Assembly: GCA_030694975.1 (NCBI GenBank)
Contig: JAUYTU010000020.1
Location: 62,001 to 126,000, forward strand
DNA length: 64,000 nt
Origin: Erysipelotrichaceae bacterium
GTDB lineage: Bacteria; Bacillota_I; Bacilli_A; Erysipelotrichales; Erysipelotrichaceae
Direction: 5' to 3'
Position numbers and translations under genes: made by a program. The notes under the pieces are model-generated. The model saw only the letters and a program-made list of their open reading frames with translations, was not told the origin of the DNA and ran no database searches. This document shows positions 35,340 through 35,551 of this stretch, one piece after another. Positions within the stretch are counted from its first letter, which is position 1, and every line of letters begins with the position of its first letter.

Positions 35340-35551
35340 ATAAACGAAGACAGGGACAAGTACTGAGTTGTCGGATCCAGAGACGTAACGGTTGGTGAGA
35401 GTTGCGCCGAGTACCAGAAAATCCACCCATGAGTGAAGGAGTAATGTCCTTTCGGTAACAGCCGTTATCTGTTTGAGAGGTATTGTTTCACGTGAAACAA
35501 TGCAAAAAGGGTGGCAACACGGAGAATCGTCCCTTGTGTTGTCTTTTTTTA
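35340..35551 (+). ncRNA. T-box riboswitch leader of serS
   Basis: Contains AGAGA, the distal-loop-like GGTTGGTGAGAG, the T-box AGGGTGGCAACACGG (35508-35522), and a terminator whose arms CAACAC (35515-35520) and GTGTTG (35536-35541) are followed by a T-run. A candidate UCC serine specifier is at 35422-35424, not verified by folding. Uncharged tRNA(Ser) should favour antitermination. The variable stem just upstream of the T-box is the parS palindrome 35484-35499. Confidence 0.9.
35484..35499. promoter_or_regulatory. parS: parS centromere site in the serS leader
   Basis: Exact match to the ParB/Spo0J site TGTTTCACGTGAAACA, extended to a 20-bp perfect palindrome at 35482-35501. It lies 10 kb from dnaA, in the origin-proximal zone where parS sites cluster. 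It is transcribed as part of the serS leader. Confidence 0.9.

Follow-up and report, generated by a model that had tools for sequence, protein, structure and literature searches.

The serS leader and its surroundings

The window analysed here is a stretch of 64,000 nt, corresponding to positions 62001-126000 of its contig, from an Erysipelotrichaceae genome of 2.19 Mb that is assembled in 42 contigs and 99.6% complete. In this part of the chromosome dnaA, dnaN, recF, gyrB and gyrA precede serS, which is followed by the SRP RNA, tadA, dnaX and recR. The genes parB, soj (parA) and noc are found at contig 58-60.5 kb, on the left side of serS at a distance of 37-39 kb. The features relevant to the serS locus are these:

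25326-26696, + strand: dnaA, a marker of the origin region (TIGR00362), approximately 10.2 kb from the first parS site
35305-35333, + strand: promoter-like site of serS, TTGACA-17-TAGAAT, agreeing with the consensus at 11 of 12 positions (identified by this similarity alone)
35338-35537, + strand: serS T-box leader of the transcriptional type (RF00230, 100.7 bits)
35475-35479, + strand: GAGAG, the RRRxG purine string flanking stem III, read from the sequence (motif from PMC7583486)
35480-35503, + strand: stem III hairpin with a 10 bp stem, from the covariance model and folding, followed by AA at 35504-35505
35484-35499, no strand assigned: first parS site, TGTTTCACGTGAAACA
35512-35515, + strand: UGGC of the T-box bulge, read from the sequence
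35513-35550, + strand: terminator hairpin (35513-35543, by folding) and T run (read directly), which competes with the antiterminator
35569-36855, + strand: serS, encoding a seryl-tRNA synthetase of 428 aa (TIGR00414, 567 bits)
35886-35901, no strand assigned: second parS site, TGTTCCACGTGAAACA, in the serS codons N-V-P-R-E-T (residues 106-111)

The leader matches the T-box model over its full length (positions 1-219), exceeding the gathering score of 93, and has the features by which members of this class are recognised: a UGGN sequence to set against the tRNA discriminator base, a specifier codon for serine and an alternative terminator. The specifier is likely to be the UCC at 35422-35424, as read from the cmscan alignment, and the UGGC would base-pair with GCCA at the 3' end of tRNA-Ser, which we take from established T-box biology. 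The leader would be expected to function through antitermination by uncharged tRNA-Ser. Of the textbook T-box stems, the minimum-energy fold of the whole leader recovers stem III alone, and apart from that stem this type of prediction is unreliable for T-boxes. Directly upstream of the serS promoter is a 189 aa open reading frame (34730-35299) with no NCBIfam family match; a second T-box leader in the window (10378-10570, - strand, 113.4 bits) lies 5' of a 640 aa open reading frame on the minus strand (8420-10342).

The first parS site has no mismatches to the 16 bp palindromic consensus TGTTNCACGTGNAACA, and with its flanks it forms a 20 bp palindrome, ATTGTTTCACGTGAAACAAT (35482-35501), that ends 7 bases short of the GGGTGG at 35509; both the sequence and the spacing are as originally described in the sequence-only reading, which had reported an exact parS at this distance 5' of the T-box motif. 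In the cmscan alignment the palindrome falls within the variable helix that precedes the T-box, and in the folded leader RNA this helix is a 10 bp stem (35480-35489 with 35494-35503) closed by the loop ACGU (35490-35493), with an energy of -11.3 kcal/mol and a z score of -3.45, none of 200 shuffles being as good. It is the parS site itself that makes up the top 6 bp and loop of this stem III. That the palindrome might lie outside the T-box core was ruled out by cmscan and folding, and the covariance model, which had been proposed as a check on its pairing, shows it to be paired both here and in the loci of relatives that are shown. Stem III is required for T-box function, its stem and loop normally being variable, and an RRRxG-stem III-AA motif makes it part of the discriminator's sensing of aminoacylation (PMC7583486). 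These flanks are present at 35475-35505 (GAGAG-stem-AA), and an RRRxG is found no more than 16 nt upstream in 97 of 109 parS leaders.

Even if one mismatch is permitted, the genome contains just two parS sites, both of them in serS and 402 bp apart. The encoded ParB has the residues R173, T179 and G201 of a parS-type protein, with R, not A, at position 184, and Noc has the Q173, K179 and R201 of the NBS type (residues and numbering of PMC7383237). Three attributes of chromosomal parS sites are found here, namely the consensus, few copies near oriC, and a genome encoding both ParA and a parS-type ParB; a fourth, binding by ParB in vivo, would be expected of the leader site. As this site is approximately 145 bp downstream of the likely transcription start, every leader transcript would cross it.

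Distribution of the leader parS among relatives

In a pattern search, 106 of 273 genomes of the family (about 40%), representing 18 of 60 genera, had a parS no more than 20 nt away from a T-box motif, as did 70 of the 152 high-quality genomes. These counts depend on the core being exact, and the genomes counted include relatives of one another and many metagenome assemblies. There was one match per genome in the family scan, and a reversed-pattern control gave none. Across the class the figure was 25 of 395, in families f7, f10, f13, f18, f24 and f25 besides f1, with four of four in the order of f10 and three of four in that of f7 and f18. In both scans a SerRS gene follows every match for which sufficient downstream sequence was available; two others end at a contig edge. 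A T-box was detected by cmscan in 18 of 20 parS-leader loci tested, parS being stem III in the alignments shown, and named carriers include Holdemania filiformis (L149), Erysipelothrix tonsillarum (L202), E. inopinata (L219) and Solobacterium.

All verified cases are serS, which rules out a general association of parS with T-box genes; presumably this specificity reflects the position of serS as the T-box gene adjoining oriC. A looser search of all genomes (parS-N{0,30}-GGTGG) returned around 50 matches in other phyla without a SerRS gene downstream, and these were set aside as background. L072 and L134, both of genus g18, were also rejected as parS leaders: some 99 bp before serS, their parS abuts the hairpin of an intrinsic terminator upstream rather than a T-box, and no T-box-like serS leader is evident; the count of 106, with its gap of up to 20 nt, is unaffected. 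In the neighbouring family f2, a recognisable serS T-box is absent from most members (L082, L085, L087-L089, L091, L093, L095, L097-L099, L101, L103, L105 and L107), and those examined have parS sites some kilobases from serS.

Because a pattern count registers only leaders whose core is intact, the main test was made on 49 serS T-box leaders picked by SerRS protein similarity, which avoids selection on parS. It had been suggested that relatives whose leader stem was of unrelated sequence and held no parS would count against dual use of the palindrome. The comparison cuts both ways: parS is exactly in this position in the 106 family genomes and in other orders, but 27 of the 49 protein-selected leaders have an unrelated stem III. 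In the relatives examined with a replaced stem III, parS is usually within approximately 5 kb of serS, mostly downstream. Since so many leaders use an unlike stem, with parS then usually near serS, parS is one allowed, non-obligatory occupant of stem III.

The SerRS of the window's genus shares only around 35% identity with the SerRS found elsewhere in the family, grouping with f10, f7 and others on a tree, and is likely to represent an old gene replacement that kept or brought parS in stem III. A parS in stem III occurs with both deep types of SerRS, and the tree needs at least nine changes between parS leaders and plain T-boxes (three of its labels are faulty, L259 being a true parS leader labelled as a T-box, L072 falsely labelled as a parS leader, and L053 lacking upstream DNA). 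The arrangement may have originated by one ancient gain with subsequent losses, by joint transfer of leader and gene, or by repeated gain, the first and last of these both being compatible with the tree.

The second site is also found in relatives, in two forms. Of the readable parS-leader loci, 44 of 69 have another parS 0-130 bp beyond the stop codon of serS, and six of 69 have one inside the gene. Loci with the downstream site include L061, L074, L094 and the L118-L228 series, and in these serS is bracketed by ParB loading sites. The coding-region site is shared by the window's genus and family f10 (L052-L056, L131, L145 and L275-L278). There, the six codons for N-V-P-R-E-T are identical in all ten sequences, and the invariant neighbouring proline and glycine are each encoded by three different codons; SerRS proteins without the coding parS differ over this stretch, for instance having NIPHES in L280. 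Because the six codons are fixed and the site-less proteins differ, the arginine and threonine look like an accommodation of the DNA site at the protein level, involving two residues of SerRS. The centromere of such chromosomes is, in effect, the serS gene.

A probable shared element and its alternatives

The identity, position, structure and conservation of the element, along with the two signatures of constraint described below, were computed. From these we consider it highly probable that a single, doubly constrained element is both parS and stem III. In duplex DNA, ParB would load at 35484-35499, beside oriC; in the leader RNA, the same bases would supply stem III with its upper half and its loop, within the discriminator that senses uncharged tRNA-Ser. 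Stem III must fold, its sequence being free, and parS must be an exact palindrome, with any flank tolerated, such that a palindrome would be needed twice in one small region and a single copy could meet both needs. On this account parS would have settled, or stayed, in the leader of an oriC-adjacent T-box gene because a palindrome there satisfies both. The dual use first proposed from the sequence is well supported, by covariance pairing and conservation, insofar as it concerns a sequence shared between DNA and RNA. The default view is of sharing without any required signalling, local occlusion in either direction being possible.

The same proposal had extended to cross-talk, which is a sub-case of dual use, its probability being contained in that of the broader reading and not added to it. 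Here, ParB loaded on the leader, or sliding from it, would lower serS transcription or alter T-box pausing, or else transcription would strip ParB from the site, linking serine supply to segregation. More specifically, ParB-CTP clamps at the stem III DNA might influence RNA polymerase while the T-box decision is being made, or transcription of the leader under serine starvation might clear ParB from its main loading site; if so, chromosome segregation would respond to seryl-tRNA charging. The passage of all leader transcripts through the first parS, so soon after the likely start, is consistent with such effects, as is the frequent bracketing, or occasional piercing, of serS by a second site. 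There is precedent in Pseudomonas aeruginosa, in which ParB represses genes adjoining parS3 and parS4 (PMC5521831; PMC7022226), but in Bacillus subtilis the genes adjacent to parS are unchanged on loss of Spo0J (PMC7022226). Many relatives have a serS T-box lacking parS, meaning regulation of this kind would not be general, and economy of space explains the data. Given that the known effects of ParB on neighbouring genes are mixed, we regard cross-talk as doubtful.

If parS alone mattered, the palindrome would owe its place in the leader to the permissiveness of the intergenic DNA around oriC, with the RNA hairpin a by-product: any parS is palindromic and so forms a hairpin, and other parS sites are also intergenic near serS. 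However, the leader site always occupies the stem III slot, lying 84-113 nt upstream of the start codon, and it has complementary flanks for which parS has no need. At least three contiguous pairs lie just outside the 16 bp core in 85 of 109 distinct leader parS sites, as against 31 of 130 other parS sites from the same group; genus means of this extension are 3.96 and 1.85 pairs respectively (Mann-Whitney p = 5e-7), and pairing is longer in the leader sites in 18 of the 23 genera that have both kinds. The bases outside the core are variable in leaders yet complementary, a property the control sites lack. ParB needs just the 16 bp core, and the outer pairing is consequently best explained by the RNA. 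Within the core, the variants found among leaders include symmetric ones, TGTTCCACGTGGAACA in four cases and TGTTACACGTGTAACA in one, as well as three that are asymmetric at position 5 or 12 (L150/L328, L325 and L280), which break one stem pair and are tolerated by the DNA consensus. Leaders without parS have a hairpin of other sequence in the same slot, and degenerate copies of parS retain the stem. Hence it is very improbable that the hairpin is a by-product.

Still less probable is the converse, that stem III alone matters and the match to parS reflects RNA conservation at a site ParB does not use. T-box function does need stem III (PMC7583486), but its sequence is variable in general and in sister leaders, and the exact core is kept in parS leaders although stem III elsewhere varies freely. 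Among the 49 protein-selected leaders, 11 had no mismatches to parS, ten had one, one had three and 27 had at least six, whilst 2450 shuffles (50 per leader) never gave fewer than three; such a two-humped distribution is that expected of a site either kept or abandoned. The ten one-mismatch remnants, which we estimate from genus and sequence to represent about six independent events, all keep the hairpin, the change being in the loop in six and producing a U-G pair in four (the natural remnant of L332 is TGTTTCACGGGAAACA). In five of these loci (L332-334, L336 and L344) an intact parS is found approximately 1.3 kb downstream. Furthermore, the leader carries the exact ParB 16-mer, unique in a genome encoding a parS-type ParB save for the coding site, and the latter is under constraint at the DNA level independently of any RNA structure. 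Chance or an assembly artefact can be dismissed, as there are only two sites in a 2.19 Mb genome, shuffles never came within two mismatches, and the same arrangement recurs in independent genomes including the named isolates L149, L202 and L219.

Relation to known systems

No earlier description of a parS within a leader, a T-box or serS, or of parS sites in the Erysipelotrichaceae, emerged from our search of the open-access literature, and the overlap of a centromere and the sensor helix of a riboswitch on the same bases is, within that literature, apparently unreported. The same piece of DNA seems to be used by two essential systems that are unrelated to each other, providing a natural setting in which to study the effects of transcription through parS on ParB loading, and of ParB on the attenuation decision. 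Natural variants, in which parS is lost and the stem kept or the stem replaced and parS moved downstream, represent ready separation-of-function alleles.

The leader site has exactly the sequence of the chromosomal parS of ParABS systems (the 16 bp consensus of the B. subtilis type), and shares with them its proximity to oriC, ParA and a parS-type ParB. Known parS sites are, however, described as intergenic or coding, as in Corynebacterium glutamicum, where nine are intergenic and one is in trpCF (PMC7083940), and we found none described as belonging to a structured leader RNA, as the site here does. Likewise, the leader has the stem I, stem II region, stem III, UGGC bulge, terminator and RRRxG/AA flanks of a transcriptional serS T-box (RF00230), but the stem III that is usually variable (PMC7583486) has as its upper 6 bp and loop a fixed, predicted binding site for a DNA-binding protein. 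The nearest precedent in kind is the neisserial DNA uptake sequence, paired inverted repeats of which are found in transcription terminators (PMC2397512), and which is similarly a DNA-handling signal reused as an RNA hairpin. Unlike uptake sequences, which are distributed genome-wide and need two copies to pair in a terminator, the serS element is a single palindromic centromere site, one of two, within the sensor helix of a riboswitch.
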